In this document: positions 30,508-47,142 of the stretch, piece after piece
Layout: each line of letters opens with the position of its first letter
Numbering within the stretch: the first letter of the stretch is position 1
Origin: Actinomycetota bacterium
GTDB lineage: Bacteria > Actinomycetota > Aquicultoria > UBA3085 > Oleimmundimicrobiaceae
Assembly (NCBI GenBank): GCA_030017835.1
Contig: JASEGU010000008.1
Span: 1-51,108 of the forward strand
Length of the DNA stretch: 51,108 nt
Reading direction: 5' to 3'
Translations under genes and position numbers: made by a program
Notes under the pieces: generated by a model
The model's database searches: none
Told to the model about the DNA's origin: nothing
What the model saw: the letters and a program-made list of their open reading frames with translations, nothing else

Positions 30508-30607
30508 TAGATTCCTCAAAATCCTCAACTAACCCTCGATTGAATCCGATTAAATGAATATGTGAATTTTACCTTTAATATTACTTTGGAACCCGAGGTG
30601 AGTTAAG

Positions 30608-31378
30608 ATTAAGGGCAAGGATAATTGGACTCGTTATAAGATCAATGGAGATAAGAAGGCTCGCGAGGAACTGATAATCGAGTATCTACCGCTTGTCAAA
30701 TACATCGTCGAGCGGATGAAGGACAATCTCTCTCCCAAGCTCAAGATGGAGTCAAACGACCTGGTCAGCAACGGGATAATCGGTCTAATCGACGCCATCG
30801 AGAAGTTCGATCTCTCTAGGGGCTTAAAATTTGAGACCTACGCCATCCCCAGAATCAGAGGCTCCATTGTCGATGAGCTTCGCCTCTCGGACGACGCCCC
30901 CCGCTCTCTGCGCCAGAAGGCCAAGCGTCTGCTCGAGGCCCACGTCAAACTGGAGAAAGAGCTCGGCAGAGAGGCCAAGGACGTTGAGCTGGCTGAAGAG
31001 CTCGGCATGGATATGAGTAGCTATAACCTGATGCTGGCCGAGGTCAACAGGATGTCGCTAGTCTCTTTGGAGGATTTCATCGTAAGCGACTCCGATTCGA
31101 CCCTGACCTTCAGCGAAAGGCTGGATGATAAGCTAGCGGAAAACCCCCTCCAAGTGCTCGAGGCCAAGGACATCAAGGCCGCTTTGGCCCGAGGCATAGA
31201 GAGCCTTGCCAAACAGGAGCGGATAGTGATATCTCTCTATTACCATGACGGCCTGACTCTGAAAGAAGCAAGCCAGGTTCTGGGCCTTTCGGAATCTAGA
31301 GTCTCGCAGATACGGACCAAGGCGGTCTTGCGCTTGCGTGAGATGCTCAGCCACCTAGAGCAGGACGCTCTGGTCTAA
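30608..31378 (+). CDS. whiG: Motility sigma factor, WhiG/FliA (sigma-28) family
   Basis: This is a sigma-70 family factor with region 2 (ELIIEYLPLVKYIVERM, DLVSNGIIGLIDAIEKFDLSRGLKFETYAIPRIRGSIVDELR), region 3, and region 4 (ERIVISLYYHDGLTLKEASQVLGLSESRVSQI). The first ATG is at 30716, inside region 2, and would truncate it. The frame remains coding upstream to 30608, giving NWTRYKINGDKKARE, typical of the family. The only start in position is ATT at 30608, five bases after GAGGTGAG. Full length is about 256 residues, normal for the family. It is the likely FlgM target and transcribes late motility genes. Confidence 0.85.
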   Translation: MKGKDNWTRYKINGDKKAREELIIEYLPLVKYIVERMKDNLSPKLKMESNDLVSNGIIGLIDAIEKFDLSRGLKFETYAIPRIRGSIVDELRLSDDAPRSLRQKAKRLLEAHVKLEKELGREAKDVELAEELGMDMSSYNLMLAEVNRMSLVSLEDFIVSDSDSTLTFSERLDDKLAENPLQVLEAKDIKAALARGIESLAKQERIVISLYYHDGLTLKEASQVLGLSESRVSQIRTKAVLRLREMLSHLEQDALV

Positions 31379-31394
31379 TTCAAGAGGAAACCGG

Positions 31395-33239
31395 ATGGAA
31401 GATAAGGAATCGATAGAGGTAGAAGCGAAAATCAAAGAGGCGGCCATAAAGGCCGCCCTTAAGATACTCAAGGCTCACAGGAGTGAGGTCTCCTTGGAGT
31501 CATCGGATGGCGATGCGCCATCGAGCGCCGGAGCCTACCGCTTTAAAGCCGTCCATTCTGAGGAGATTAACCCGGGGGAAGAAAAGGAAAATTCTCAAAA
31601 GGAGATCTCCGCCGATCTTGATGGCTCTTTTAGCCTCCTTGCCAAGGGCGATGGCATCTTCCTTCGGGTCTATCCTCCGGAGGGACAGGGCCAGAGCGTC
31701 GGGCTTGAGCGGGTCATGGCAAGGATTAGGTACTGTGAGATCAAAGACTTCGATATGAAGAACGTAATGGAGGCTGTAAGCAAACAGGATAGCATCGATG
31801 TCTGGATAGCTCCCGTCCAGCCGATAACTCCCAAGGATGGCGAGATCACGATAACCGTATCCAGGGACAAGGTCACGGCAAACGCTCTCATCAGCGAGCC
31901 CTGGGGGGACGGCAAACCTGCAAGCAAAGAGGATATCGAGTCGGCCCTCATGATGAACAACGTAACCTACGGCGTCGAATGGGGCCTCATAGAAAGGATA
32001 GCCGCCGATAAGCGAGGTTTCTATTACGGCAAACCGGTCCTTTTAGCTCAAGGGGTCCCTCCCATCGACGGCGAGAATGCCAGCGTCGAGTACCTCTTTG
32101 AGAGGGGCCCCCACAAGAAGGAATTGATCGAAAACCCCGAAAACTTGCGGATAGACTTTCGTGAAATAAACGAGATAATAAACGTCACCAAGGACGAGCC
32201 CTTGGCAAAAAAGACCCCCCCTACCCCTGGAGTTCCGGGAGTCAGCGTCTTTGGCGAAGGGATCTTACAGAAGGCGGGCAAGGATAGAAGGATTCCTATC
32301 GGACAGAACGTCTACACGGTCGAAGATGAAGATGGGGAGACCGCCTTCGCCAAGATAGACGGAACTCCCCACATAAAGGACGGCAAGATAACCGTCCTGC
32401 CCATCTATCAAACCAGCGGCGACGTAGATTTTTCGGTCGGCAACATAGACTTCATCGGAAGCGTCGTCATCAGAGGTTGGGTCAGAGACGGCTTCTCCGT
32501 TAAAGCCAAGGGAAGTATCGAGGTTAGGGGGGGCGTGGAGGGCGCCACCCTGGAAGCGGAAGAGGCGATAATCATCGGGGCGGGCGTCCAGTCTCACAGC
32601 AAGGGAATAGTAAAAGCCGGCGGGGACGTAACGGCAAAATATATCAGCAACGCCATTATCCATTCCAGGGGAAATGTCATAGTCGGAGATGCCGTCCTGC
32701 ACAGCGAAATATTCGCCCATAAGAAGATCTTGGTCAAACGGGGCAAGGGGCTCATTTCAGGTGGAGTCATTAGGGCCGGAGAGGACGTCGATGCCAATAA
32801 CATCGGCTCCCACCTTGGGACCGAGACCGTGATAGAGGTCGGCATCATCCCGGAAGTTAGGGCAGAATATGACCTTGTCAAAAACGAGATAGAGGAGAAG
32901 TCACGAAAGATAGACGATACTGAAAAGGCGATACTGCTCCTGGAGAAGGAGCGGAAGGAGAAGGGCTTTCTAACCAAGGATCGGGTCGGTCTCTACGAGA
33001 GGCTCAAGACCAATATCTCCTTTTTTGAGGATGATAACACCCTCCTCAAAAAGAGATTGGACCAGCTCAAAGAGACACTATTCGCTTCGCGCTTCGCCAA
33101 AGTATCGGCTTCAAGAAAGATATTTTCACAAGTGAAGGTGACCATAAGAGGTGCTATAATAAACGTAACCGACGAGCTCGACTCCTGCTCGCTCTATGAA
33201 AAGAATGGAGAAATCCATATCGGAACGTATTCACCTTAA
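31395..33239 (+). CDS. fapA: FapA/DUF342 family polar-localisation protein
   Basis: This 614-residue DUF342 protein has an N-terminal region with a short helical segment (about 1-35), then the FapA core: VTANALISEPWGDGKPAS, VLLAQGVPPIDGENASVEYLFE, FREINEIINVTKDEPLAKKTPPTPGVPG. A right-handed beta-helix-like stretch follows (GSVVIRGWVRDGFSVKAKGSIEVRGGVEG...) and a C-terminal coiled coil. FapA proteins bear on polar flagellar assembly in Vibrio-type bacteria; their role in Firmicutes-like cells is not settled. It starts 16 bases after the sigma gene stop. Confidence 0.92.
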   Translation: MEDKESIEVEAKIKEAAIKAALKILKAHRSEVSLESSDGDAPSSAGAYRFKAVHSEEINPGEEKENSQKEISADLDGSFSLLAKGDGIFLRVYPPEGQGQSVGLERVMARIRYCEIKDFDMKNVMEAVSKQDSIDVWIAPVQPITPKDGEITITVSRDKVTANALISEPWGDGKPASKEDIESALMMNNVTYGVEWGLIERIAADKRGFYYGKPVLLAQGVPPIDGENASVEYLFERGPHKKELIENPENLRIDFREINEIINVTKDEPLAKKTPPTPGVPGVSVFGEGILQKAGKDRRIPIGQNVYTVEDEDGETAFAKIDGTPHIKDGKITVLPIYQTSGDVDFSVGNIDFIGSVVIRGWVRDGFSVKAKGSIEVRGGVEGATLEAEEAIIIGAGVQSHSKGIVKAGGDVTAKYISNAIIHSRGNVIVGDAVLHSEIFAHKKILVKRGKGLISGGVIRAGEDVDANNIGSHLGTETVIEVGIIPEVRAEYDLVKNEIEEKSRKIDDTEKAILLLEKERKEKGFLTKDRVGLYERLKTNISFFEDDNTLLKKRLDQLKETLFASRFAKVSASRKIFSQVKVTIRGAIINVTDELDSCSLYEKNGEIHIGTYSP

Positions 33240-33250
33240 TGAGGACGGGT

Positions 33251-33562
33251 ATGTCCATTCGCCCAAGTGACCTGCAGATAATAATACAAAAGACCCAGGA
33301 TGTAGAGAGAATCCAGCAGATACAACAACAACATTCCCGCATTCAACAGCAGCAATTTGCCCAAGAGATGAACAAGATCCACAAAAACAGAGAGAAGGAT
33401 GTAACCCAGACCCCAAAGCCACAAGAGGCAGAGATAAGAGAGGAAGAGCGAAGGAAAAAGGGTGGAGAGAAGAAGTCCGAGGAAGAGGCATACAACGAAC
33501 AGGGTGCCCACGATGAGGATGAGGAAGAAGAGACGGGTCAAAATTTGGATATAAAGATTTAG
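33251..33562 (+). CDS. Conserved Gln/Glu-rich protein after fapA
   Basis: This protein of about 103 residues begins SIRPSDLQIIIQKTQDVERIQQIQQQ, a Gln-rich helix also seen in proteins encoded after fapA in other motile Gram-positive-type genomes. The rest is highly charged (EEERRKKGGEKKSEEE) and probably disordered. No enzymatic motif is visible. ATG at 33251 is preferred (GAGG six bases upstream) over ATG at 33239, which overlaps the fapA stop. Confidence 0.65.
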   Translation: MSIRPSDLQIIIQKTQDVERIQQIQQQHSRIQQQQFAQEMNKIHKNREKDVTQTPKPQEAEIREEERRKKGGEKKSEEEAYNEQGAHDEDEEEETGQNLDIKI

Positions 33563-33570
33563 GGGGATTG

Positions 33571-34032
33571 TTGGAAATATTGATCTTCTTATTGCTGCTG
33601 ATCTTGGTACTCTTACCATTCCTACTAGCGAAAGGGATGAGAAAGAGCTCGCTATTTGCCGATGAAGCCGGAAAACACCTCGAGCTCAAAGAACTGGAAA
33701 ACTCTTTGAGCCACCTCCTCTCCGAAATCGAAACGGCCTCTGAAAGAGCTCTTGGTGAGGCTGACCGGGCAACGATCCGTTTGGAACTCGTCATCAAGAG
33801 GGCCGAAGAGTTGATTGATAATATGGCCCACGTGACCAGAGAGCAGAAAATTGAGATGAAGTCGCCGGATAAGGAAAGCTTAAGCATCAACGAGATAGCA
33901 AAAGGACTAAGCCTGGATGAGATGGTCTCTTTGGGTCTTAGCTCCAATCAGATCGCCCAGGTCTTGGGCATAGGGGCCGGTGAAGTCGAATTGATACTTA
34001 ACCTGAAGGCAAACAAAAGATTCGATAACTGA
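33571..34032 (+). CDS. Membrane-anchored coiled-coil protein, DUF6115-like
   Basis: This protein of about 153 residues has an N-terminal membrane helix (EILIFLLLLILVLLPFLLAKG), a coiled coil (about 33-85), and a C-terminal helix-turn-helix-like segment LSLDEMVSLGLSSNQIAQVLGIGAGEVELIL. This is the layout of DUF6115/DUF2802-type proteins that close fapA-associated motility operons. The start is TTG at 33571 (GGGGG five bases upstream) or TTG one codon earlier. It is the last plus-strand gene of the motility locus. Confidence 0.7.
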   Translation: MEILIFLLLLILVLLPFLLAKGMRKSSLFADEAGKHLELKELENSLSHLLSEIETASERALGEADRATIRLELVIKRAEELIDNMAHVTREQKIEMKSPDKESLSINEIAKGLSLDEMVSLGLSSNQIAQVLGIGAGEVELILNLKANKRFDN

Positions 34033-34308: not shown

Positions 34309-34369
34309 GAGCACCTATTCTTAAGCGGGCTATCGATTAGAATAGCCCGCTTAAGGAGTTTATGGTGCT
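34309..34369. terminator. Long hairpin, possible terminator at the end of the antiporter operon
   Basis: CTTAAGCGGGCTAT (34320-34333) pairs exactly with 34342-34355 around an eight-base loop, and AGCACC/GGTGCT (34310-34315, 34364-34369) can extend the stem. It lies just after the minus-strand antiporter stop and before the Cys-rich gene. No long U-run follows on either strand, so factor-independent termination is uncertain. Confidence 0.5.
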
Positions 34370-34399: not shown

Positions 34400-37300
34400 C
34401 TAGAAGGCCCTTACGTAGAGCAAGGAGCCCGCAATAACCAGAAGGAGGCTTATCATTATCAGTATATTGGTACCGATATCCCTGGTGTATGAACGGATCG
34501 AATCCCTGGTCTCTTCGACGTCTATGGCAGCATAGAGCGCTTGCTCGGCCCCGGCGAATCTCTTTTCGGAGAGGAAGGTGAGACCAGCCAGGATCATCCT
34601 TCTAATCCAGTTCATCTCCTGATAGACGCCATAGGTCAGTATCTTGTAGGTCAATTGGGCCTTGCCGGCTTCAAAAAGCGCTCTCTGGAAGAGCTGCTCT
34701 ATCCTATCGGACTCGACGAAGTCCTCGGCTTTGGCCATGCTCTCCATGCCCATCTCACCAAATATGGTGAATTGGGCGCGGAGCTCTTCTAAGGTGGCCG
34801 GACCTTCGCCGGTTCCCAACATGCCCTCTCCGCCATACATCTTGCTGATCTCTTCCAGCTTGACGATGGTATCTTGCAGGCGATTCAGCTTATCCTTAAT
34901 AATCTTCTGATCCCTCTCCAGAGTCTTTTCGGCGCTGGTAAGCAGCCTGTTCAACCAATAGACATCCTCTTTGCTTAGGAGGTTCGGGTTGCTCTCGACG
35001 GCAGCTCCCATATATCTTAGGGCGCTGAGGTCGGCTCTGGAGAGATGCTCCTCGCGGATCAAGGGCTCCTCTATCTGGATTAAGACCTTTCTTAAGGCGT
35101 GGAGCTCCCTCTGGGAGAGATCGTCCAATCCCCTATTCAAGTTTGAGACGGCTTCTGCAATATCCCTGATAATCTCGCCTCTGATTTTCTGCTCTTCGAG
35201 CAGGGTTGCCACGCGCACGCTTATCTCTCTGCGCCTTTCGTGCTTGCCCTTGAAGAGATAGGTGTTGATCCTGCGCCTGATCCTATTGTTGAGTGAATCA
35301 ACATTTCTCGGCACGTTGACAAGACCCGCTTCCAATAAGAAGCTTCCGGCTTTCAGCCTGATCCTATCGAACGCACTAAGGGTCTTTGGCATCTTAGCAA
35401 GTACGGCTTCCAATAAGAAGCTTCCGGCTTTCAGCCTGATCCTATCGAACGCACTAAGGGTCTTTGGCATCTTAGCAAGTACGGCTTCCAATAAGAAGCT
35501 TCCGGCTTTCAGCCTGATCCTATCGAACGCACTAAGGCTCCGCTTGGGAAGGGTTAAAGCCCCCGACTCGACAAGCCCCGTCTCTATGTTCGACTTGACG
35601 CTATTCTTGGATTCGGCAACGAACTTATTGAAGAACAAGAAGGCGGCCGAGATCTTGAGATACCAGTACCTGACCGAGATCCATTCCGGCGGGTGAATGT
35701 GGAAGAGACCTATGCGATAACCTAAGACGAAATACATTCCGCCGCCCATAACCGCCATAGCCGAACCCAAGATGTTGTGAAGGGCGTCAGCGTTGCTGAA
35801 GACTGCCTTAGTAACCGGGTCAAACCAGAGAGGAATGATCGACTTTATCTCTCCCGCAGCCGCATGGGTATTGAACAGTATATGATAGGGATGGGAGGCC
35901 GGATTATAACCAAAGTAGGCCAGAGCCGGTCCAATGAAGCTCTCTATCATCCAGTTGGGCTTCATGCCGATGAAGATGATGACCGAAGCTAGAGTCACAA
36001 GCGCGATGGTCATGTAGATCGGCTCGCGCTCGACATCTTTGTACTTCTCCGGCCTCTTCCAGATGAAGACGAAGAGCCACATCTTGAAGTTGGAGCAGAA
36101 GGTTCCAAAGGCCGTCAGCATGAAGATTATTTCGGCTACCAGGAGCAAGATGTCCTTCTTGCCGACCGCCGAAAAGGCGGCCGAGTGATCAAACGCCTCG
36201 AAAATGGCATGGTGGAGAAGGGTCTTACTGGCAAAACCGTTGAAGAAGGGCACGCCCGCTATGCCGAAGACCGCAATCAAGCAGGCTATGGCCACAATCG
36301 GCATGTTCCGCCAGAGACCACCCAGTTTATACATGTCGAGCTCGTGCGTTCTAAAGTAGACCGCACCGATACTCATGAATAAGAGGGCCTTAAAGAGAGC
36401 GTGGTTGACGATATGATAGATACCGCCCGCAAAACCCATGGCCCCGTCTGCACCGAGGTAAGCCGCACAACCGAAACCGAAGACGATGTAGCCCATCTGA
36501 GAGACGCTGTGGTAAGCAAGCATCCTCTTGCAATTGGCCGTGAGCAAGGCGTTAACGACACCAAAGAACATTGTGATTATTCCGAGCCAGAGGAGAGCGT
36601 AACCCAAGGTAGTCTTGGTCGTCCATTCGGCCACGTGACCGGCAGCAGCCGAATGGGTCGCCGCTGCCTCGGCAAAGACCGGATGGGCCTCAGTGTAGAG
36701 GGTATTGATGGATCTGATGATACCGTAAGCGCCGGCCTTGATCATAACGCCAGAGAGAAGCATGCTGGCCGGAGTCGGAGCAACCGGGTGAGCTTCGGGC
36801 AGCCAGACATGGAGGAAGAAGACGCCGGCTTTGGCTCCAAAGCCGGCGACCATGCAGGCCGCTATTATATACCTCATATTAGTTGGGACCGTCTTCTGGA
36901 TCAATTCGGCCATCGGCATGATGTTTAGTTGACCGGTATAGGAGAAGAGAAGCAGAATACCGACCAGAAGGGCCAGACCGAAGATGATGCCGAACCAGAG
37001 ATAGAGCTTTCCGGCCGAGAAGGCCGCCTCGTTCTCTTCGTGAATTACCAGCATGACCGAGAAGAGACCGAGCATCTCAAAGAAGATGAAGAGAGAGAGA
37101 AAATCTCTGGACAAAAGGACACCGAGGTCCGCACTCAAGGTCAAAAGGACAAAGGTGGCATACCTTGTCCTAGCATGCTCGTGCGACATATAACTTACAG
37201 CATATATCGATGATAAGAGCCATAAGAACGATGTCGTGAGCGCTATCAGTAGCGCCGTCGGATCGACCTTGAATCCTAAATTTAAAAATCCATAAACGCG

Positions 37301-37549
37301 TTCAATGCCAAGATAGGTATGGCCTTTAATAGATACTCCCTTGACCACCGGATTATACATCATAAGAAGGACCAAGAAGGTAGCCAAGGTGGTAAGGACC
37401 GTGGCTGCATTTCTTAACTTCTCCCTCTTGTTGAGTAATCCGGCAACCAGGGCCCCCCCGGCCGGTACAAGACATGCTACCAGCGGAAGAGAAGCTGTAA
37501 GATTACTTACTCCGCCCGTTACGGGCCCAGCTACTGCTGCCGCACTCAT
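34400..37549 (-). CDS. Giant MrpA/MrpD/NuoL-type antiporter subunit with long helical tail
   Basis: This is a 1,049-residue protein. Residues about 15-620 form a proton-antiporter module of about 14 membrane helices with the Glu-bearing helix SLFIFFEMLGLFSVMLVIHEE, FGAKAGVFFLHVWLPEAHPVAPTPASMLLSGVMIKAG and KRMLAYHSVSQMGYIVFGF. Residues about 660-740 contain a 26-residue unit (LSAFDRIRLKAGSFLLEA) repeated nearly three times. Residues about 740-1020 are helical and highly charged, and a last membrane helix (TNILIMISLLLVIAGSLLYV) ends the chain. Usual family members are 450-800 residues. It is the promoter-distal gene of the antiporter operon. The tail is unlike any Mrp or Nuo subunit I know. 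Confidence 0.85.
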   Translation of the reverse strand: MSAAAVAGPVTGGVSNLTASLPLVACLVPAGGALVAGLLNKREKLRNAATVLTTLATFLVLLMMYNPVVKGVSIKGHTYLGIERVYGFLNLGFKVDPTALLIALTTSFLWLLSSIYAVSYMSHEHARTRYATFVLLTLSADLGVLLSRDFLSLFIFFEMLGLFSVMLVIHEENEAAFSAGKLYLWFGIIFGLALLVGILLLFSYTGQLNIMPMAELIQKTVPTNMRYIIAACMVAGFGAKAGVFFLHVWLPEAHPVAPTPASMLLSGVMIKAGAYGIIRSINTLYTEAHPVFAEAAATHSAAAGHVAEWTTKTTLGYALLWLGIITMFFGVVNALLTANCKRMLAYHSVSQMGYIVFGFGCAAYLGADGAMGFAGGIYHIVNHALFKALLFMSIGAVYFRTHELDMYKLGGLWRNMPIVAIACLIAVFGIAGVPFFNGFASKTLLHHAIFEAFDHSAAFSAVGKKDILLLVAEIIFMLTAFGTFCSNFKMWLFVFIWKRPEKYKDVEREPIYMTIALVTLASVIIFIGMKPNWMIESFIGPALAYFGYNPASHPYHILFNTHAAAGEIKSIIPLWFDPVTKAVFSNADALHNILGSAMAVMGGGMYFVLGYRIGLFHIHPPEWISVRYWYLKISAAFLFFNKFVAESKNSVKSNIETGLVESGALTLPKRSLSAFDRIRLKAGSFLLEAVLAKMPKTLSAFDRIRLKAGSFLLEAVLAKMPKTLSAFDRIRLKAGSFLLEAGLVNVPRNVDSLNNRIRRRINTYLFKGKHERRREISVRVATLLEEQKIRGEIIRDIAEAVSNLNRGLDDLSQRELHALRKVLIQIEEPLIREEHLSRADLSALRYMGAAVESNPNLLSKEDVYWLNRLLTSAEKTLERDQKIIKDKLNRLQDTIVKLEEISKMYGGEGMLGTGEGPATLEELRAQFTIFGEMGMESMAKAEDFVESDRIEQLFQRALFEAGKAQLTYKILTYGVYQEMNWIRRMILAGLTFLSEKRFAGAEQALYAAIDVEETRDSIRSYTRDIGTNILIMISLLLVIAGSLLYVRAF
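35328..35537 (-). repeat. 78-bp tandem repeat, 2.7 copies, inside the giant subunit
   Basis: The stretch beginning GCTTCCAATAAGAAGCTTCC recurs at 35328, 35406 and 35484 with spacing 78. The first two units are essentially identical, and the third diverges at 35538. It encodes the 26-residue repeat MPKTLSAFDRIRLKAGSFLL plus six residues. Near-identity at DNA level points to recent unequal crossing over. Confidence 0.9.
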
Positions 37550-37572
37550 ACACTTTCCTCCAATACTTTAAT

Positions 37573-38064
37573 TTAATGGTGCCCCGCGTCAGGGGCCGCG
37601 CCATGATCTTCTCCGTGACCCGATCCATGTCCGTGATCGGACCCGTGATCACCCGGCTCTTCGTCGTGACGACCGAGAACCCCGTAGAAGGTGATCAGGA
37701 AGGCCGCCACAAACATGACGAATATCCTAATCGTGCCGAGCTGCTGAGTCTCATGAAACGACCTTAGCATCAGGGGATAATCTAGTCCCTTGATGGCAAA
37801 GACCATGATGACGATGAGGAAGCCAAGGAGCATACCCTCGCTGTGGCCCTTGCCGCGCAGCTTGATCTTGAGGGCATAGAGCAGGCAGATGACGAAGGTT
37901 GCGATGGTGAGACCCCATTGGATCTGATAGTACTGCATCGCCACCTTATCGACCTCATGGCCGCCCTCCGCCGCCGCGCTGGCCAAGGCGATCCCCGAAG
38001 GGATCAGCCCTAGGACCAAGGTGACTATCGTTATATATAGCTTTCTGATTGAACCGCTTCTCAT
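37573..38064 (-). CDS. His-rich small membrane protein, copy A
   Basis: This protein of about 163 residues has a signal-like first helix (LYITIVTLVLGLIPSGIALA), three more membrane helices, and a soluble His/Asp/Glu-rich tail (HDEEPGDHGSDHGHGSGHGE) that could bind metal. No known family was recognised. ATG at 38064 is preferred, with AGGGG five bases upstream; GTG at 38070 lies too close to that site. It follows the MrpD-like gene by a few bases and is duplicated exactly at 39679. It is probably a novel accessory subunit of the antiporter complex. Confidence 0.7.
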   Translation of the reverse strand: MRSGSIRKLYITIVTLVLGLIPSGIALASAAAEGGHEVDKVAMQYYQIQWGLTIATFVICLLYALKIKLRGKGHSEGMLLGFLIVIMVFAIKGLDYPLMLRSFHETQQLGTIRIFVMFVAAFLITFYGVLGRHDEEPGDHGSDHGHGSGHGEDHGAAPDAGHH

Positions 38065-38072
38065 GAGCACCC

Positions 38073-39614
38073 CTACTTAAGCAAGATATTGGTGGCTGCT
38101 TTTATGATATCTAGTGGGAAACCTGGAGCCTTGGCGAATATGCCGACCACGATGACCCCGAGCGCACCGACGAGAACCGGGATGGTCATGACGGCCGGAG
38201 CCTCTATCGACTCGACCTTGGCGGCTTCGCCGTGGCCATGCTCGTCATGGCCGTGTCCGGCCGCTGCTTCACCCTCGGCCTTCTGGAAGAAGGCGGTGTA
38301 GATGATGGGCAGGAAGTAGGCGCCTCCAAGGAGCGAGCTTATGAGGAGGACTATGACGAAGAAGACTCCGCCCGCATCGAGCGCACCGATGGCCAAGTAC
38401 CACTTGCTGATGAAGCCGACAAAGGGCGGAAGACCGATCATGCCGAGGGCGGCTATCGTGAAGGCGATGAAGGTTAAGGGCATCTTGTTACCAAGACCGC
38501 GAAACTCGCTCACATTGGCCTTGCCCGATTGATGGATGATGTTACCGGCGCACATGAAGAGAGTTCCTTTCATGAGGGCGTGGTTAATGATGTGAACCAG
38601 GGCTCCCGCGATTGAGAACTCGGTCAAAAGGACGGTTCCAAGAACTATGTAGCCCATCTGACCGATGGTCGAATAGGCGAGCCTCCTCTTAAGGTTGTCC
38701 TGATTTAGGGCCAGTATCGAGGAGACGATGATGGTGAATGAGACTATGTAGGCCAGGGTGAAGGAGACGTTCAAGCTCTTGACCAAGGCCACGCCAAAGA
38801 CGTTGAGCACGGTTCTAACGATACCGAAGGCACCGACGGCGACCATGACGCCCGAAAGGATGGCACTAAAGGGAGCCGGAGCTACCGGGTGAGCCTGAGG
38901 GACCCAGCCGTGCAGTGGCATCATGGCGGCTTTGACACTGAAGCCGATCATGAAGCCCCAGAAGAGGACGAGAAGAGCTGCCCTATTCTGAGCCGCGAGC
39001 GCCGGTATACCGGCCATGGAGAGATCCAAGGTGCCGGCCAAGAAGTATGTATAGATGATCGAGAAGAGCACGAAGGAGGAACCGATCAATATGTAGACCA
39101 TGTATTTCTTACCGGCTGCCAGGGCTTCCGGGGTCTCCTCATGAACTATCAAGGGATAGGTCGAGAAGGAGAAGAGCTCGTAGAATATGAGATAGGTAAA
39201 GAGGTTGGCCGATATGGCAACACCGACCGTCCAGGATAGACATAGGGCCACGAAGCTGAAGTAGCGTCTCTTGGAGTGACCGTGAGACATATAGCCTATC
39301 GAGTGAATGGTGGCCAAGACCCAGATGAGGGCGGCCGTGAAGACCAGAAGAAGACCGAGTTGATCGACCCTTAGGGCAAAGTTTATGCCGGGAACGACCT
39401 CACCCAGACTCGCCTCATAGACCCCCCCGCCGATGACCGTTTTCATCATCGAGAGGGTGACGACGAAGGTTGCCACCGAGGCGATTACGCCCAGGAAGGA
39501 ACCCAAGCCGCTCCTCTTCTCGCCGAGCAAGAAGATGAGGACCGCAAAGACTAGTGGGATTAAGACAACTAAGAGTGCGGGATTCGAAAACATAGCTTGC
39601 GAACTACCGTTCAT
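38073..39614 (-). CDS. MrpD/NuoN-type antiporter subunit, copy A
   Basis: This 513-residue proton-antiporter-domain protein has about 14 membrane helices. Key segments are YLIFYELFSFSTYPLIVHEETPEAL (Glu helix), IGFSVKAAMMPLHGWVPQAHPVAPAPFSAILSGVMVAVGAFGI (Lys helix), LKRRLAYSTIGQMGYIVLG and LVHIINHALMKGTLFMCAGN. A His-rich loop (AAGHGHDEHGHGEA) lies near residue 450. GGAGG precedes the ATG at 39614. Encoded identically at 40179. It is related to but distinct from the MrpD of the same operon. Confidence 0.92.
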   Translation of the reverse strand: MNGSSQAMFSNPALLVVLIPLVFAVLIFLLGEKRSGLGSFLGVIASVATFVVTLSMMKTVIGGGVYEASLGEVVPGINFALRVDQLGLLLVFTAALIWVLATIHSIGYMSHGHSKRRYFSFVALCLSWTVGVAISANLFTYLIFYELFSFSTYPLIVHEETPEALAAGKKYMVYILIGSSFVLFSIIYTYFLAGTLDLSMAGIPALAAQNRAALLVLFWGFMIGFSVKAAMMPLHGWVPQAHPVAPAPFSAILSGVMVAVGAFGIVRTVLNVFGVALVKSLNVSFTLAYIVSFTIIVSSILALNQDNLKRRLAYSTIGQMGYIVLGTVLLTEFSIAGALVHIINHALMKGTLFMCAGNIIHQSGKANVSEFRGLGNKMPLTFIAFTIAALGMIGLPPFVGFISKWYLAIGALDAGGVFFVIVLLISSLLGGAYFLPIIYTAFFQKAEGEAAAGHGHDEHGHGEAAKVESIEAPAVMTIPVLVGALGVIVVGIFAKAPGFPLDIIKAATNILLK

Positions 39615-39678
39615 CTTTAAAACCTCCTTAAATAGTATTATGAAGCACGTCTAAAGCTTGAAAGCTGTGAAATAGGTA

Positions 39679-40170
39679 TTAATGGTGCCCCGCGTCAGGG
39701 GCCGCGCCATGATCTTCTCCGTGACCCGATCCATGTCCGTGATCGGACCCGTGATCACCCGGCTCTTCGTCGTGACGACCGAGAACCCCGTAGAAGGTGA
39801 TCAGGAAGGCCGCCACAAACATGACGAATATCCTAATCGTGCCGAGCTGCTGAGTCTCATGAAACGACCTTAGCATCAGGGGATAATCTAGTCCCTTGAT
39901 GGCAAAGACCATGATGACGATGAGGAAGCCAAGGAGCATACCCTCGCTGTGGCCCTTGCCGCGCAGCTTGATCTTGAGGGCATAGAGCAGGCAGATGACG
40001 AAGGTTGCGATGGTGAGACCCCATTGGATCTGATAGTACTGCATCGCCACCTTATCGACCTCATGGCCGCCCTCCGCCGCCGCGCTGGCCAAGGCGATCC
40101 CCGAAGGGATCAGCCCTAGGACCAAGGTGACTATCGTTATATATAGCTTTCTGATTGAACCGCTTCTCAT
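39679..40170 (-). CDS. His-rich small membrane protein, copy B
   Basis: The protein is identical to copy A at 37573: a signal-like N-terminal helix, three further membrane helices and a His/Asp-rich C-terminal tail. Its ATG is at 40170, by the same ribosome-binding-site argument. It sits between copy B of the MrpD-like gene (upstream) and copy A (downstream). Having two exact copies of this otherwise unrecognised protein, each paired with the same antiporter subunit, suggests the two proteins work as a unit. Assembly-level duplication cannot be excluded from sequence alone. Confidence 0.7.
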   Translation of the reverse strand: MRSGSIRKLYITIVTLVLGLIPSGIALASAAAEGGHEVDKVAMQYYQIQWGLTIATFVICLLYALKIKLRGKGHSEGMLLGFLIVIMVFAIKGLDYPLMLRSFHETQQLGTIRIFVMFVAAFLITFYGVLGRHDEEPGDHGSDHGHGSGHGEDHGAAPDAGHH

Positions 40171-40178
40171 GAGCACCC

Positions 40179-41720
40179 CTACTTAAGCAAGATATTGGTG
40201 GCTGCTTTTATGATATCTAGTGGGAAACCTGGAGCCTTGGCGAATATGCCGACCACGATGACCCCGAGCGCACCGACGAGAACCGGGATGGTCATGACGG
40301 CCGGAGCCTCTATCGACTCGACCTTGGCGGCTTCGCCGTGGCCATGCTCGTCATGGCCGTGTCCGGCCGCTGCTTCACCCTCGGCCTTCTGGAAGAAGGC
40401 GGTGTAGATGATGGGCAGGAAGTAGGCGCCTCCAAGGAGCGAGCTTATGAGGAGGACTATGACGAAGAAGACTCCGCCCGCATCGAGCGCACCGATGGCC
40501 AAGTACCACTTGCTGATGAAGCCGACAAAGGGCGGAAGACCGATCATGCCGAGGGCGGCTATCGTGAAGGCGATGAAGGTTAAGGGCATCTTGTTACCAA
40601 GACCGCGAAACTCGCTCACATTGGCCTTGCCCGATTGATGGATGATGTTACCGGCGCACATGAAGAGAGTTCCTTTCATGAGGGCGTGGTTAATGATGTG
40701 AACCAGGGCTCCCGCGATTGAGAACTCGGTCAAAAGGACGGTTCCAAGAACTATGTAGCCCATCTGACCGATGGTCGAATAGGCGAGCCTCCTCTTAAGG
40801 TTGTCCTGATTTAGGGCCAGTATCGAGGAGACGATGATGGTGAATGAGACTATGTAGGCCAGGGTGAAGGAGACGTTCAAGCTCTTGACCAAGGCCACGC
40901 CAAAGACGTTGAGCACGGTTCTAACGATACCGAAGGCACCGACGGCGACCATGACGCCCGAAAGGATGGCACTAAAGGGAGCCGGAGCTACCGGGTGAGC
41001 CTGAGGGACCCAGCCGTGCAGTGGCATCATGGCGGCTTTGACACTGAAGCCGATCATGAAGCCCCAGAAGAGGACGAGAAGAGCTGCCCTATTCTGAGCC
41101 GCGAGCGCCGGTATACCGGCCATGGAGAGATCCAAGGTGCCGGCCAAGAAGTATGTATAGATGATCGAGAAGAGCACGAAGGAGGAACCGATCAATATGT
41201 AGACCATGTATTTCTTACCGGCTGCCAGGGCTTCCGGGGTCTCCTCATGAACTATCAAGGGATAGGTCGAGAAGGAGAAGAGCTCGTAGAATATGAGATA
41301 GGTAAAGAGGTTGGCCGATATGGCAACACCGACCGTCCAGGATAGACATAGGGCCACGAAGCTGAAGTAGCGTCTCTTGGAGTGACCGTGAGACATATAG
41401 CCTATCGAGTGAATGGTGGCCAAGACCCAGATGAGGGCGGCCGTGAAGACCAGAAGAAGACCGAGTTGATCGACCCTTAGGGCAAAGTTTATGCCGGGAA
41501 CGACCTCACCCAGACTCGCCTCATAGACCCCCCCGCCGATGACCGTTTTCATCATCGAGAGGGTGACGACGAAGGTTGCCACCGAGGCGATTACGCCCAG
41601 GAAGGAACCCAAGCCGCTCCTCTTCTCGCCGAGCAAGAAGATGAGGACCGCAAAGACTAGTGGGATTAAGACAACTAAGAGTGCGGGATTCGAAAACATA
41701 GCTTGCGAACTACCGTTCAT
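40179..41720 (-). CDS. MrpD/NuoN-type antiporter subunit, copy B
   Basis: The 513-residue protein is identical to copy A. It directly follows the operon's own MrpD gene, from which it differs clearly in sequence, so the operon encodes MrpD plus two identical MrpD-like proteins plus the giant subunit. Each antiporter module in complex I relatives is a potential ion-translocating unit, so the copy number could change the stoichiometry of pumping or simply raise expression. Translation would start at ATG 41720 with GGAGG upstream. Confidence 0.92.
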   Translation of the reverse strand: MNGSSQAMFSNPALLVVLIPLVFAVLIFLLGEKRSGLGSFLGVIASVATFVVTLSMMKTVIGGGVYEASLGEVVPGINFALRVDQLGLLLVFTAALIWVLATIHSIGYMSHGHSKRRYFSFVALCLSWTVGVAISANLFTYLIFYELFSFSTYPLIVHEETPEALAAGKKYMVYILIGSSFVLFSIIYTYFLAGTLDLSMAGIPALAAQNRAALLVLFWGFMIGFSVKAAMMPLHGWVPQAHPVAPAPFSAILSGVMVAVGAFGIVRTVLNVFGVALVKSLNVSFTLAYIVSFTIIVSSILALNQDNLKRRLAYSTIGQMGYIVLGTVLLTEFSIAGALVHIINHALMKGTLFMCAGNIIHQSGKANVSEFRGLGNKMPLTFIAFTIAALGMIGLPPFVGFISKWYLAIGALDAGGVFFVIVLLISSLLGGAYFLPIIYTAFFQKAEGEAAAGHGHDEHGHGEAAKVESIEAPAVMTIPVLVGALGVIVVGIFAKAPGFPLDIIKAATNILLK

Positions 41721-41793
41721 CTTTAAAACCTCCTTAAATAGTATTATGAAGCACGTCTAAAGCTTGAAAGCTGTGAAACCTTAAAGCGGCCCC

Positions 41794-43314
41794 TTACATG
41801 GCAAGCCCCAGCAGCGATTTAGCGGCCGGCATGAAGTAATTGGTGATCATCGGATTGATATAGAAGAGGCCATAAACAAGACAGCTTGCAGCCAGTATGA
41901 CTATCGGGATCAGCATGCTAAGCGGGGCCTCGTCAACCTCGGCCGTGAGATTCTCGGGGATGCGGAAGAATATCACGTTTATTATCTTTATGTAGTAAGC
42001 AAAGACCATCAAGGCTCCAACGAGCATGGCTATGGCGAAGAATAATCGACCGGAATCAAAGGCCCCGTTGATGACATACCATTTGGCCCAGAAGCCGACG
42101 GTTCCGGGAACACCCGTAATAGAGAGAGCACCGATGACAAGGGCCATGCAGGTGATCGGCATCTTCTTCCCTATTCCCTTAAGATCGTTCAGCTTCCTAA
42201 GGCCGGTCTTGTAGATTATGGCACCGGCTGAAAGGAAGAGAAGGCTCTTGATGATGGCGTGGGCGGCCACATGGGTTAAGGCGCCGAGCATGGCGTTGAC
42301 GCTTCCAGCCGGATTAGATACCGAGATAAGACCAATACCCATAAGGATGTAGCCGATGTTGGAAACACTGGAATAGGCTAAGATGATCTTTAAATCATCC
42401 TGGAAAAAGGCGAAGAAGGCACCAAAGATTACGGTCGCCGTCGCAAACCAGGCCAGCACATCGAGCAGGTAGCTGAAGTTGATCGGTCCGGCGATCCTAT
42501 ATATCGAAAAGACAATCCTCAAGATTCCGACGATACCGATCTTGATGACCAGACCGGAAAGGAGCGCGCTGACCGGAGAGGGGGCAAGACCGTGGGCATC
42601 GGGTAGCCAGATGTGGACCGGGAACATGGCCGCCTTGACGGTAAAGCCGATTATCAGCGCGGCCACGGCCACATATGCCGTAGTAGATGCTCCATACTGC
42701 TGAAGCTTGAGTGAGATATCAGCCATATTGAGGCTGCCGGTAACGTTGTAGATGAAGGCGATGCCTACCAGAAGAAGCAGTGACGAGAGAGCACCCATCA
42801 CCAGATATTTGAAGCTGGCCATGGCGTTTAGCCTCTCCTCGGTTATGGCTATCAAAGAGTAACCGGCCAGAGATAGTATCTCCATAAAGACGAACATATT
42901 GAAGATGTCGCCGGTTATGGTAACGCCGACCATGCCTCCGACTAGAAGCAAGACCAAGGTATAGTAGATGGGGAGTTTATCCTCGCTTATCTCGTGCTCC
43001 ATATACTTCTTGGAATAGACCATGATGATGATGTTTAGGAGCAGGATCAGAAAGGCGAAGGCTCCCAAGTAATCGAACTTTATCTCGATACCGTAGGGCG
43101 GCCTCCAGCCGCCTAGATAGTAACTTAGGGGCCCGGACCGATAGAGCTCTGCCGCAGCAAGCATACAGAAGTAGAAGCCCAAAGTCGATACTATCAGAGC
43201 CCACCAAAATGCGAGTTTCTTTCTGATCAGGCTGATGATGGGAGTTAAGGCCGCTCCAGCCAGAAAGATTATTTCCATTAAGACTGGGCTATGAGATGTC
43301 AGATATGTCGTCAT
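41794..43314 (-). CDS. mrpD: Na+/H+ antiporter subunit MrpD
   Basis: This 506-residue antiporter subunit of the MrpD/MbhH type has FNMFVFMEILSLAGYSLIAITEE (Glu helix), IGFTVKAAMFPVHIWLPDAHGLAPSPVSALLSGLVIKIGI (Lys helix), and LKIILAYSSVSNIGYILMGIGL. Length and motifs are typical. It lies four bases downstream of mrpC. Together with the upstream genes it makes the conserved Mrp/Mbh antiporter core. Confidence 0.93.
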   Translation of the reverse strand: MTTYLTSHSPVLMEIIFLAGAALTPIISLIRKKLAFWWALIVSTLGFYFCMLAAAELYRSGPLSYYLGGWRPPYGIEIKFDYLGAFAFLILLLNIIIMVYSKKYMEHEISEDKLPIYYTLVLLLVGGMVGVTITGDIFNMFVFMEILSLAGYSLIAITEERLNAMASFKYLVMGALSSLLLLVGIAFIYNVTGSLNMADISLKLQQYGASTTAYVAVAALIIGFTVKAAMFPVHIWLPDAHGLAPSPVSALLSGLVIKIGIVGILRIVFSIYRIAGPINFSYLLDVLAWFATATVIFGAFFAFFQDDLKIILAYSSVSNIGYILMGIGLISVSNPAGSVNAMLGALTHVAAHAIIKSLLFLSAGAIIYKTGLRKLNDLKGIGKKMPITCMALVIGALSITGVPGTVGFWAKWYVINGAFDSGRLFFAIAMLVGALMVFAYYIKIINVIFFRIPENLTAEVDEAPLSMLIPIVILAASCLVYGLFYINPMITNYFMPAAKSLLGLAM

Positions 43315-43317
43315 AGT

Positions 43318-43692
43318 TTATCTTAACTCCTTTAACTTGTTTGCGTTCAAGGTACCGCACTGGTCATAGAGCTTTATCATCAGCGACAGCGCCAGAGCCG
43401 TCGTACTGACGGCAACGACGATGGCCGTAAGGATGAGGGCCTGGGGTATCGGGTTTACGAAGACCGGGTTTGCCGGCGTTGTCTTGGTATAAATGGGAGC
43501 GATACCGCCCTCAACCAGACCGCTCGAGATGATAAAGAGAAAGACCGATGTCTCGATGATATTAAGGCCCATGAATTTCTTGATTAGATTGGGCTTAATG
43601 ATCAGAGCGTATAGCCCAATGCAGAATAGGGTCACGGCCACCACATAATTTATGCTCGAATAAGCTTTGGCGATTATCTCGTTATTTATCAT
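43318..43692 (-). CDS. mrpC: Na+/H+ antiporter subunit MrpC (NuoK-like)
   Basis: This 124-residue protein has three membrane helices and is related to NuoK. Family blocks are VVAVTLFCIGLYALIIKPNLIKKFMGLNIIETSVFLFIIS and NPIPQALILTAIVVAVSTTALALSLMIKLY. The conserved Glu in NIIETSV lies in the second helix. The start overlaps the upstream gene by four bases (ATGA type), so the two are translationally coupled. It precedes mrpD by four bases, as in canonical operons. Confidence 0.94.
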   Translation of the reverse strand: MINNEIIAKAYSSINYVVAVTLFCIGLYALIIKPNLIKKFMGLNIIETSVFLFIISSGLVEGGIAPIYTKTTPANPVFVNPIPQALILTAIVVAVSTTALALSLMIKLYDQCGTLNANKLKELR

Positions 43693-44420
43693 TTCTCCAC
43701 CTTCTCCATGGCCAAGAATATCGAGGATATGACCGTTCCGCCCCCGATACCTATGCCTACTTCGATTATCTCGATCATTAGGCTGCGCATGGCCGTCTGA
43801 GTGACAGGATCGAGACCGGGAATGATATAGGTCAAGAAGTTCTGGTTGTAGAATAGAGCCACCACGCCGCAGGCGAAGAAGGCGATCGGTCCGGCCCCCT
43901 CCATCAGGGTCCTGACCTTCACAAAGAACTTGCTCAAGGCCAGCTCATAACTGAAGGTCATCGTATAGATGATTATGCTCGCGCCAAGGATCGCACCGGC
44001 CTGAAAGCCGCCGCCGGGAGATTCCTTGCCGTGAAGCATGATGTATACGGCAAAGAGCATGATGAATGGAGCTAGAAAACGGACGACGCTTTTTACGATG
44101 ACGCTCTCCTTGATGCCGACCAAGTCGACCTTGGATGTATGAAGCTTGGGATCTTCTCTGCCGACGACCGCCAAGACGGCGATCAGGGCGCAGAAGATGA
44201 CCGTCACCTCACCCATGGTGTCGTAACCACGGTAGTTCAAGATGACGCAGGTCACGATGTTTTCGGCTCCGGCCTCCTCTACCCCCTGTTCAAGATAACG
44301 AGGTATCACATGAGTGGTGACGGGAGTCGTCTCGCTGCCTATCGGGGGCAGGGCCAAGACGGCTGAGACCATCAAGAGCCACAATAAAAAGAGTATGAAA
44401 AAGGTCAGTATTCTTTTCAC
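43689..44420 (-). CDS. mrpB: MrpA C-terminal helix domain fused to MrpB
   Basis: This 243-residue protein joins an N-terminal MbhE/MrpA-tail part (ENIVTCVILNYRGYDTMGEVTVIFCALIAVLAV, about residues 50-90) to a MrpB domain (about 100-240) with FLAPFIMLFAVYIMLHGKESPGGGFQAGAILGASIII. In archaeal Mbh operons these are separate mbhE and mbhF genes. The fusion, and the DUF4040 gene directly upstream, mark this operon as Mbh-like rather than classical Mrp with one large MrpA. Confidence 0.88.
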   Translation of the reverse strand: MKRILTFFILFLLWLLMVSAVLALPPIGSETTPVTTHVIPRYLEQGVEEAGAENIVTCVILNYRGYDTMGEVTVIFCALIAVLAVVGREDPKLHTSKVDLVGIKESVIVKSVVRFLAPFIMLFAVYIMLHGKESPGGGFQAGAILGASIIIYTMTFSYELALSKFFVKVRTLMEGAGPIAFFACGVVALFYNQNFLTYIIPGLDPVTQTAMRSLMIEIIEVGIGIGGGTVISSIFLAMEKVEK

Positions 44421-44659
44421 TCGTCCTCCCTTCTGACGGTACGGCCGATGGTGATCAAGAAGAGGATGGTAGTAACACCGGCGCCGACGGCCGCTTCAGT
44501 CAGAGCGATGTCAGGAGCGCTTAAGCGTTGCCAAATAATGGCCATTATCAAGCTATAGGCCGAAAAGATGATCGAGGCTCCAAGAAGGTCCTTGGTCCGA
44601 ACCACGCCGAAAGCTGCGATTATCAGAAAGAGCAAGAGCAGTAAATCAAGACTCCGCAT
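44417..44659 (-). CDS. DUF4040 antiporter subunit (MbhD-type)
   Basis: This 80-residue protein has three membrane helices and the DUF4040 pattern, MRSLDLLLLLFLIIAAFGVVRTKDLLGASIIFSAYSLIMAIIWQ, then APDIALTEAAVGAGVTTILFLITI. It corresponds to part of the MrpA C-terminal region, separate here as MbhD in archaeal operons. The ATG at 44659 is chosen because GGGAGG lies nine bases upstream and the longer reading frame overlaps mrpG heavily. It overlaps mrpB by four bases at its end. Confidence 0.87.
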   Translation of the reverse strand: MRSLDLLLLLFLIIAAFGVVRTKDLLGASIIFSAYSLIMAIIWQRLSAPDIALTEAAVGAGVTTILFLITIGRTVRREDE

Positions 44660-45014
44660 CGGCAAAACCCTCCCTTGCATAGGTTGTCTGGTACTGCTTT
44701 CTCCAGGGCATGATGCCGACCCTGTAAGCGGCCCGGGAAATCGCATGTCCACAGACCGAGGTCAAAATCATGTTCAGAAAGATGAGGATGATCATCTTGA
44801 GGCCGTCTCCGGAGAAACCTTCGTATATCGCCAAGGCGAATAGGATTCCTCCAAGTCCTAAGGTGTCACACTTGGTTCCAGCATGAAGCCTGCAATAGAC
44901 ATCCGGCAAACGGACCAGGCCCAGGACTCCAACGAAGAAGAAGAAGAGGCCCATGGACGCAAAGATGTAGATCAGAATGTTGGTAATGATTCCTAAAATA
45001 TTTAGACTAGGCAC
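44646..45014 (-). CDS. mrpG: Antiporter subunit MrpG
   Basis: This protein of about 122 residues has three membrane helices and the MrpG signature FFFVGVLGLVRLPDVYCRLHAGTKCDTLGLGGILFALAIYEG. GTG at 45014 is chosen as start (GGGAGG eight bases upstream); the frame runs open to 45047 but that adds sequence overlapping mrpF. It overlaps mrpF by eight bases. Known role: an accessory subunit of multi-subunit cation/proton antiporters. Confidence 0.92.
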   Translation of the reverse strand: MPSLNILGIITNILIYIFASMGLFFFFVGVLGLVRLPDVYCRLHAGTKCDTLGLGGILFALAIYEGFSGDGLKMIILIFLNMILTSVCGHAISRAAYRVGIMPWRKQYQTTYAREGFADAES

Positions 45015-45276
45015 TTGGCAGACCTCCCGTCTCGAGATATCTGGCAACCGCTATGGTTACGATGAAGTTAAGAAGCGCGTAGACGATTGCCGTATCTATA
45101 TACATGCTTTGATCGAAGATGAAGGCGATGAGGGATAAGACCGCAACGGTCTTGGTGCCGATCAGATTGACCGCAACCAGCCGATCGGCCAGAGTCGGTC
45201 CGGCTATGGCCCTAAAGAGACAGACGAACATATAGAGAACCAGGATGGTGCATACCACGATAAAGAAATTATCCAC
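45007..45276 (-). CDS. mrpF: Antiporter subunit MrpF
   Basis: This 89-residue protein has three membrane helices and the MrpF motif LFRAIAGPTLADRLVAVNLIGTKTVAVLSLIAFIFDQSMYIDTAIVYALLNFIVTIAVARYLE. The Asp residues in the GPTLADR and IDTAIVYA segments are conserved in the family. Its ATG overlaps the mrpE stop by one base, so translational coupling is likely. It fits the E-F-G order. Confidence 0.94.
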   Translation of the reverse strand: MDNFFIVVCTILVLYMFVCLFRAIAGPTLADRLVAVNLIGTKTVAVLSLIAFIFDQSMYIDTAIVYALLNFIVTIAVARYLETGGLPSA

Positions 45277-45776
45277 TACTCCTTCACCCCTTCATATACC
45301 CATTTGACCATGTTCTCCAAGACTCTCTCTCCCATGCCGCGAGCGTGGGTATCGGCCAGACAGTGAATGTAGTAGTAACCTTCGTCATCGATATCGACCG
45401 TCAGAGTCCCTGGGGTCAGGGTTATGTAGTTGGCGTGGATGGTCTTGGCATCCTCTCCTTTGAGATGGCAGTCATACTTAAGTATCTGAGGATCGATCGG
45501 AAGGCGGGGATTCAAGACCCTCTCGGCCACATCTATGTTGGCCTTGATGATCTCAATCAAGAGAAGGAAGATGGAGTAGAGGAACCTGCCCAAAATGGCC
45601 GGCGATCCCTCCACGTCTCCAAGGTTCTCCTTCATCAAAACATAAGCTAAGACCGCTACCAGCAGGGAGACAACCACGCCCATGATGACGTTGGTAGAGC
45701 CCCAGTTACCGGATGTAAGTAACATCCAAAAACCGAACAAAAATAGTGTCATACTAAATACCTTTTTAGAAGGCAA
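45276..45776 (-). CDS. mrpE: Antiporter subunit MrpE
   Basis: This 166-residue MrpE-family protein has two N-terminal membrane helices (MTLFLFGFWMLLTSGNW, VIMGVVVSLLVAVLAYVL) and the soluble motif ANYITLTPGTLTVDIDDEGYYYIHCLADTHARG. It is the first gene of the operon. TTG at 45776 has GGGGGG about six bases upstream; ATG at 45752 (after AAAAAGG) is an alternative giving an eight-residue shorter protein. Confidence 0.92.
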   Translation of the reverse strand: MPSKKVFSMTLFLFGFWMLLTSGNWGSTNVIMGVVVSLLVAVLAYVLMKENLGDVEGSPAILGRFLYSIFLLLIEIIKANIDVAERVLNPRLPIDPQILKYDCHLKGEDAKTIHANYITLTPGTLTVDIDDEGYYYIHCLADTHARGMGERVLENMVKWVYEGVKE

Positions 45777-46161: not shown

Positions 46162-47040
46162 TTATTTTTTCGCCTTCTTTGTGCCCTCCTTCTTCTCGGT
46201 AAGGATGACAACCTTGTTTTTCCCGTCCGATTTGGCTTTGCGTAGGGCTTCGGTCGCCTTGATTATCATCTCGGTATCGGTGTCGGCACTCGTCGGATAT
46301 ATGGATATTCCCACGCTTATTGTGGCTTTGACGACCGGTTGCTCGATATCTCCTTCAAACTGTGCCGCTTCGATCATCTTACGAAGCTTTTCTGCGACCG
46401 TCTCAGCTCCTGAGTAATCGGTCTTGGGCAGAATGACGGCGAATTCCTCTCCGCCGTAACGGGCAACGATGTCTATCTCTCTAACCGTCTTCTTGATTAT
46501 CTCGGCTACCCTTTCCAGCATCCTATTGCCCTTATCGTAGCCGAAGGTGTCGTTGAACTTGTTGAAATCATCGATATCCAGCATCAATAGAGCAAAAGCA
46601 TCGCTATACCTCTTGGAGCGCTTGACCTCATCCGTTAAGCGAGCCATGAAGTAACCATAATTATATAGATGAGTCAGAGCATCCTTGTTGGAGAGCATTT
46701 CGGCTTCAGCTTGCTGCTTGCGCTGCTTGCCGGAGATATAGCCGACGACCAGCCCTCCCAATGTGAAGATTACCACTCCGAGCATCATCTGGTAATTCAA
46801 GCGCTCTGGATCGGCTATCATCAAGGAACTGTTTCCCATGGTCCAATAGATGGCCGCCCCACTCAGTACCCCAGCGATTATGCTTCCGGCAAACTCATAA
46901 GCGGCAGCCGCTATGAATATGGGAATGACATAAAGAAACCAATAGAACTCAAGTTGACCGGAAACATATACGAAGAGGGATACGAAGACAAAACTAACGA
47001 CAATCAAAAGCATCTTCTTTAAATGTTGACCTGCGCCCAA
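46162..47040 (-). CDS. Membrane diguanylate cyclase
   Basis: This protein of about 292 residues has five or so membrane helices in the first 115 residues, then a GGDEF domain. The active site reads ARYGGEEFAVILPKT, and the substrate-binding LTHLYNYGYFMARL and LMLDIDDFNKFNDTFGYDKGNRML segments are present. The product is c-di-GMP. No RxxD inhibitory site is evident before GGEEF. TTG at 47040 is preferred because AGGAGG lies nine bases upstream; the frame extends to 47049, but there AGGAGG abuts the codon. It is an enzymatic partner for the PilZ receptor at 29600. Confidence 0.92.
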   Translation of the reverse strand: MGAGQHLKKMLLIVVSFVFVSLFVYVSGQLEFYWFLYVIPIFIAAAAYEFAGSIIAGVLSGAAIYWTMGNSSLMIADPERLNYQMMLGVVIFTLGGLVVGYISGKQRKQQAEAEMLSNKDALTHLYNYGYFMARLTDEVKRSKRYSDAFALLMLDIDDFNKFNDTFGYDKGNRMLERVAEIIKKTVREIDIVARYGGEEFAVILPKTDYSGAETVAEKLRKMIEAAQFEGDIEQPVVKATISVGISIYPTSADTDTEMIIKATEALRKAKSDGKNKVVILTEKKEGTKKAKK

Positions 47041-47142
47041 AAATCTCAACCTCCTTTTCTGTTGTAGTTTATATTAATACCCAAAGGTATCGAGCTCTTG
47101 CCCATAAGACCACGCAAGATTACACCCAGCTAATCGTAGTAA

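Follow-up and report, generated by a model that had tools for sequence, protein, structure and literature searches.

An operon on the minus strand of the window, i.e., the whole 51,108-nucleotide stretch of Actinomycetota DNA analyzed here, probably encodes a stand-alone Mrp Na+ (or K+)/H+ antiporter of the group 3 type, a complex with four antiporter modules. The window corresponds to contig C8 of a 1.31-Mb draft genome (G000; 74 contigs, completeness rated 100%) from the Oleimmundimicrobiaceae, a deep-branching family of Actinomycetota whose members include Candidatus Oleimmundimicrobium americanum UBA3085. From 45776 to 34400, the genes are transcribed in the order mrpE, mrpF, mrpG, mbhD/DUF4040, an mbhE-mrpB fusion, mrpC, D1, D2-H, D2-H and Giant (Table 1). 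Every Mrp subunit type was assigned by Pfam, with NCBIfam in agreement for the operon proteins, and Proton_antipo_M (PF00361) was found by Pfam in D1, D2 and Giant. As in group 3 Mrp, the MrpB, C, D, E, F and G types share one operon in an irregular order (Pfam/NCBIfam). A full-length MrpA is absent, MbhD (PF13244) and MbhE (PF20501) being located in separate small proteins and Giant being of the N-terminal antiporter type only. The antiporter assignment is based on the gene order, since all Mrp subunit types stand in the E-F-G-B-B'-C-D order of the stand-alone Mrp of Pyrococcus furiosus (PMC8415708), on the conservation of the block across relatives combined with the absence of the peripheral-arm subunits searched for, and on the presence of most key residues together with the MrpA/NuoL-like fold of Giant.

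The P. furiosus group 3 Mrp, which has no redox module, contains the same subunit types in the same order up to D1 (first seven genes). It lacks MrpA-N and has a single antiporter subunit; the present operon encodes three more, as well as H. An earlier, sequence-only reading of this DNA, whose gene coordinates and order over 34400-45776 proved correct, had likened the operon to the antiporter half of archaeal Mbh/Mbs complexes. The subunits of that half are indeed present, but the set is more like the mrpEFGBB'CD of P. furiosus than like Mbh itself. We read it as an irregular group 3 Mrp that stands near the membrane half of the archaeal MBH and MBS complexes. Among solved structures, the best match of MrpC is the MBS subunit 6u8y_G (E=6.5e-27) and that of D1 is MbhH (6cfw_H, E=3.8e-83), while the MbhD and MbhE-B parts could be aligned to either Pyrococcus complex and Giant compares with MbsH' (6u8y_X) of MBS. 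Catalytic subunits of the J-K-L-M-N type were not found in this genome.

The core set was recovered in nine genomes of three families, this genome included (G000, G001-G004, G006, G012, G017 and G021). The arrangement E F G MbhD EB C D1 D2a D2b H Giant is found in G001-G004, from the same family, and in G012, from another one. In G006, from the third family, an extra antiporter gene lies between H and Giant, leading to five modules, and the D1-D2-D2-H-D2-Giant stretch was also read in G017, of the same genus as G006, and in G021. Hence, the sequence-only count of up to four antiporter modules holds here and is exceeded in a related family. Giant first appeared to be split in G006; a second gene was rejected because a run of N within the repeat causes the split. 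Beyond these families, Wenzhouxiangella limi and relatives have four-module Mrp operons in which H was not detected (three genomes behind the loci searched), and one uncultured bacterium has four antiporter genes in a row. A second Mrp operon, of three modules (E F G D EB C D1 D2 L; L061 in G002:C38, L062 in G012:C8, and L071), is also present in relatives and absent from this genome.

Most residues expected of such an antiporter are present. The glutamate of transmembrane segment (TM) 5 and the lysines of TM7 and TM12 are kept in all antiporter modules of the window, as are the MbhD glutamate within APDIALTEAAVG (alignment to 6cfw_D and 6u8y_D), the MbhE Asp/Glu in the NYRGYDTMGE of the MbhE-MrpB fusion (YDTxGE; alignment to 6u8y_E, 6cfw_E and 6cfw_F) and MrpF D31. 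In the AlphaFold2 (AF2) model, residues about 20-550 of Giant adopt a confident NuoL/MrpA-N-type antiporter fold. The top Foldseek match of Giant is MrpA (7qru_A); among solved structures, MrpA, NdhF, FHL subunit 3 and MbhH have the most similar folds.

Several observations weigh against this interpretation. The TM8 lysine is absent from D2b-type members, including the D2b of the window. The aspartate of the cation path (MrpF D35/MbhB D35), termed invariably conserved in MrpF (PMC7419157), is replaced by Asn (N37) in the MrpF of the window (alignment to 6cfw_B, 7qru_F and 6u8y_B). According to the clade alignment, Asn occupies this position in most of the multi-module set; G010 has Asp there and the second G002 operon has Ser. 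In MrpC, both Bacillus-type histidines are replaced, while an acidic residue is kept as in MBS. Because of these MrpF and MrpC replacements, the cation site is considered altered. The AF2 models of H and of the Giant arm are of low confidence, so the lateral-arm interpretation is tentative. Finally, that the subunits assemble into one complex is an inference, as are the ion, its direction, the stoichiometry and the parts played by H and the arm.

Table 1. Features of the operon and its surroundings (window positions).
Feature	Position	Strand	Evidence or remark
mrpE, 166 aa, first gene of the operon	45276..45776	-	MNHE PF01899, E=1.8e-33
mrpF, 89 aa	45007..45276	-	MrpF_PhaF PF04066
mrpG, about 112-133 aa, start uncertain	44646..45047	-	PhaG_MnhG PF03334, E=1.7e-24; TIGR01300 above cut-off
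mbhD/DUF4040, MrpA C-terminal part; true start probably ~44659	44417..44752	-	PF13244, E=3.5e-22
mbhE-mrpB fusion, 243 aa	43689..44420	-	MbhE PF20501 and MnhB PF04039 in one protein
mrpC, 124 aa, MBS-like (GLNIIETSVF)	43318..43692	-	Oxidored_q2 PF00420
D1, MrpD/MbhH-type antiporter subunit, 506 aa	41794..43314	-	PF00361
D2b copy 1, MrpD-like antiporter subunit, 513 aa	40179..41720	-	PF00361; tree
H copy 1, 165 aa, His-rich orphan	39679..40176	-	No Pfam, NCBIfam or PDB match
D2b copy 2, exactly as copy 1	38073..39614	-	PF00361; sequence comparison
H copy 2, exactly as copy 1	37573..38070	-	Sequence comparison
D2b-H unit, exact 2,100-bp tandem duplication	37573..41778	-	37573-39672 = 39679-41778
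Giant, 1,049 aa	34400..37549	-	PF00361; AF2 model; Foldseek; hydropathy
Three 78-bp (26-aa) tandem repeats, start of Giant arm	35310..35543	-	Repeat search; 26-residue periodicity
16-pair inverted repeat just past the Giant stop, possibly operon terminator	34318..34357	.	Pattern scan

The two 513-aa MrpD-like proteins described as identical in the sequence-only reading are so, being encoded by an exact tandem repeat. This identical pair is a peculiarity of this genome, unlike its relatives, which hold two diverged genes, D2a and D2b. The D2 of the window shares 65-67% identity with D2b and 47-48% with D2a of same-family relatives. Because it falls within the D2b group of the maximum-likelihood tree (support 100/98), D2a seems to have been lost from this genome and the D2b-H unit duplicated. 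It is possible, though rather unlikely, that the two copies and the missing D2a result from an assembly error, the true locus being D1-D2a-D2b-H-Giant as in relatives. Indeed, the repeat is exact over its full length, relatives carry D2a in the slot concerned, and the genome is a draft in 74 contigs. However, the copies are joined by a 6-bp spacer found at neither outer edge of the repeat, which speaks for a genuine tandem junction, one that probably derives from reads. D2a was not found elsewhere in the assembly, the antiporter-type genes of the whole genome being the four of this operon, with D2 counted twice. Apart from this duplication, the 78-bp units in Giant are the sole long direct repeat listed for the window, which holds no further exact repeat of the 2,100-bp size, but the D2b-H copy number could still differ from two.

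A second alternative, which we consider quite improbable, is that the operon specifies the membrane part of a redox-driven pump, the peripheral arm being of an unknown type or encoded by genes located elsewhere; the sequence-only reading had offered a new respiratory complex membrane arm alongside a stand-alone multi-antiporter. The closest relatives of solved structure include MbhH and MBS subunits, and D2a/D2b-like subunits occur inside a complex I-like operon of the same class (G026, with PF00346 and PF00146; G019 likewise), so such modules can join redox arms. Against this, PF00146 (NuoH/MbhM-type) had no match in any of the nine block-carrying genomes, and PF00346 (NuoD/Ech-type) had none in the eight that were checked, this genome included and G021 outside the check. 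PF01058 and PF00374 had one match each genome-wide, the small and large subunits of one NiFeSe hydrogenase, so that no NuoB was found beyond this small subunit. This enzyme, the sole NiFe hydrogenase found when Ni-Fe and Fe-S subunits were looked up elsewhere in the genome as the sequence-only reading had proposed, lies on another contig (L063, G000:C7, 9307-12464). Its small subunit has a twin-arginine signal (Tat-exported), an in-frame TGA makes selenocysteine likely, maturation genes stand alongside, and a maturation protease-like open reading frame follows the hydrogenase. The sequence-only statement that no hydrogenase or Nuo-like peripheral genes are in sight stands for the operon and its checked neighbors, namely the genes for a diguanylate cyclase and a GalT-like protein; relatives have an acetyltransferase or deacetylase-like gene there. 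The operon would thus be neither a group 4 NiFe hydrogenase (Mbh/Ech) or MBS, with the catalytic large subunit and the NuoH/MbhM-like subunit apparently absent, nor a respiratory complex I, with NuoD and NuoH apparently absent and the sole PF01058 match being the hydrogenase small subunit. Together with the conservation of the block, these searches support the stand-alone proposal but not the respiratory one, for which they gave neither a peripheral arm nor a NuoH-like partner in this genome.

The complex I-like operons of this class were also observed in their own right. In L058 (G026:C41, 2815-16124), five antiporter-type subunits (one NuoM-like, one NuoN-like, two D2-like and one L-like) adjoin NuoD, NuoH and a flavoprotein. 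A similar operon is present in L057 (G019), where the contig end cuts the L-like gene, and similar partial sets are present in L056 (G008) and L065 (G014). A five-pump complex I has been stated to be unique to Ca. Manganitrophaceae (PMC9040806).

The energetic setting of the window genome includes a complete Rnf set, CDGEAB (gene order, and Pfam of C, D and B), together with a V-type ATPase and a membrane pyrophosphatase, which, with no complex I or Ech recovered in these searches, fits a cell coupling Na+ and H+ gradients. The LPGTQGIYGF..YQG..VETYAVLS pattern of the ATPase K subunit and the DLFESYVG/GNTTAA pattern of the pyrophosphatase are what we take to be Na+-type patterns. In another deep-branching actinobacterium, Rnf and V-type ATPase were proposed to form a Na+ circuit (PMC7325909).

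It is likewise very unlikely that a normal Mrp (E-F-G-B-B'-C-D1) is simply followed by a second, independent transporter made of D2, H and Giant: the P. furiosus Mrp is functional with E-F-G-B-B'-C-D alone (PMC8415708) and H and the Giant arm resemble no known complex, but the gene order is kept in at least three families, D1-D2-D2-L also occurs in Gammaproteobacteria and one further lineage, and the MrpA-N/NuoL-type module required by most studied Mrp systems is encoded here by Giant only. Because this order is kept in several families, the extra subunits belong with the operon and are not unrelated neighbors.

The partner protein H, proposed earlier as a new His-rich protein of 163 aa, matches no known family but counts 165 aa with its GTG start and is present twice. 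It has a predicted signal peptide, about three TM segments and conserved QW, YHE and GxLxR positions. Nothing exceeded the Pfam cut-off. Weak Pfam matches of single members (MARVEL and others) were scattered and judged to be chance. The AF2 model of H (predicted local distance difference test score, pLDDT, 58) was too weak to read, and the fold search gave no significant match. When 397 Actinomycetota genomes were searched with an H profile, matches were strong in nine of the nearest, good in the more distant G005 and weak in G026, the remaining matches being marginal; H was recovered only in related Actinomycetota. Its gene is placed after D2b and before the next antiporter gene, except in G005, where it adjoins the distal one. 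The same slot holds small membrane proteins unlike H in sequence in G008, rich in acidic residues and His, and in G019, similar but without a long acidic stretch. Besides the His-rich tail of H, a His-rich loop (GHGHDEHGHGE) is present near the D2b C-terminus (residues about 447-470). Searching other genomes for the gene set, as suggested previously, recovered the block in the nine genomes, the identical D2 pair being found only here.

In Giant, residues about 620-1025 are predicted, with low confidence, to be all-helical and are followed by a single C-terminal TM (about residues 1028-1046; hydropathy). The strongest self-similarity of this arm is at a 26-residue lag in this genome, G012, G006 and G010, and at 25 residues in L072 and L073, all above the 95% level of shuffles, narrowly so in G006 and G012; the top lags of other relatives differ (47 in G001-G003). 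The lateral-helix insert that accompanies the extra pumps of Complex_I_3 is 26 residues long, and Nitrospira 2M complex I has one of about that length (PMC9040806); the match is suggestive only. The idea of a "ruler," in which module number sets arm length, was rejected: the arm repeat number varies among relatives of equal module number, four-module relatives of the same family are without the 26-aa tandem repeats seen here, and exact tandem repeats, of which G006 has several, are absent from G017 of the same genus.

Around the operon, the diguanylate cyclase (GGDEF) gene lies directly upstream (46162-47049), likewise in three families. On the other side, PilZ-like, sigma-factor and FapA-like genes (29585-34032) suggest, by eye only, the end of a flagellar cluster. 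The terminator reading of the inverted repeat past Giant is limited by the fact that such sites are no more numerous in the region than in shuffles.

As a multi-module antiporter, the complex would work as follows. D1, the two D2 and Giant would form a row of proton half-channel modules, with MrpE-F-G/MbhD/MbhE-MrpB/MrpC forming a cation path beside D1. Giant would cap the far end, its long helical arm and C-terminal membrane anchor tying the row like the NuoL/MrpA lateral helix, and H would be an accessory subunit placed between D2 and Giant. The membrane potential would drive proton uptake through the modules, paying for Na+ or K+ extrusion. A larger number of modules would raise the number of protons per cation above that of ordinary Mrp, and this higher cost would permit cation expulsion under a weak or reversed proton gradient (alkaline or low-energy conditions). 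More speculatively, and with considerable doubt, module number in stand-alone Mrp may be an adjustable "gear," D2-H units being added or duplicated and the Giant arm extended by 26-residue steps, which would alter the protons per cation and make H a new structural subunit of the long forms.

This operon is of a known kind, since additional mrpD/NuoL-like genes have already been described in group 3 Mrp operons (PMC8415708; PMC7784846; PMC5703873), and it is a variant within that kind. The group 3 Mrp of Ca. Nitrospira alkalitolerans is likewise stand-alone, with NuoM/NuoL-like genes after mrpD (PMC7784846); it has two such extra genes, against three here with H and a 1,049-aa L-type subunit. 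Duplicated MrpD is found, as here, in cyanobacterial (mrpCD1D2EFGAB) and Microbacterium (mrpFGBCDDAE) Mrp, which differ by their gene order, their two D and one A, and the absence of H (PMC5703873). Nitrospira 2M complex I and the Complex_I_3 of Ca. Manganitrophaceae combine extra pump modules with a lateral-helix insert in the distal subunit (PMC9040806), which recalls the repeated unit of the Giant arm, but both belong to complex I and have a peripheral arm, unlike the present operon. No description was found of the module count with its five-module relative, the orphan H, the altered residue of the cation path and the oversized arm. Pump modules are common to complex I, Mbh and Mrp, and it is an open question why their number per complex can be one, two, three or higher. 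A redox-free family with three, four or five modules would make it possible to measure, without a redox arm, how ion stoichiometry depends on module count. The operon also adds a conserved, undescribed subunit (H) and a distal pump whose arm varies naturally.

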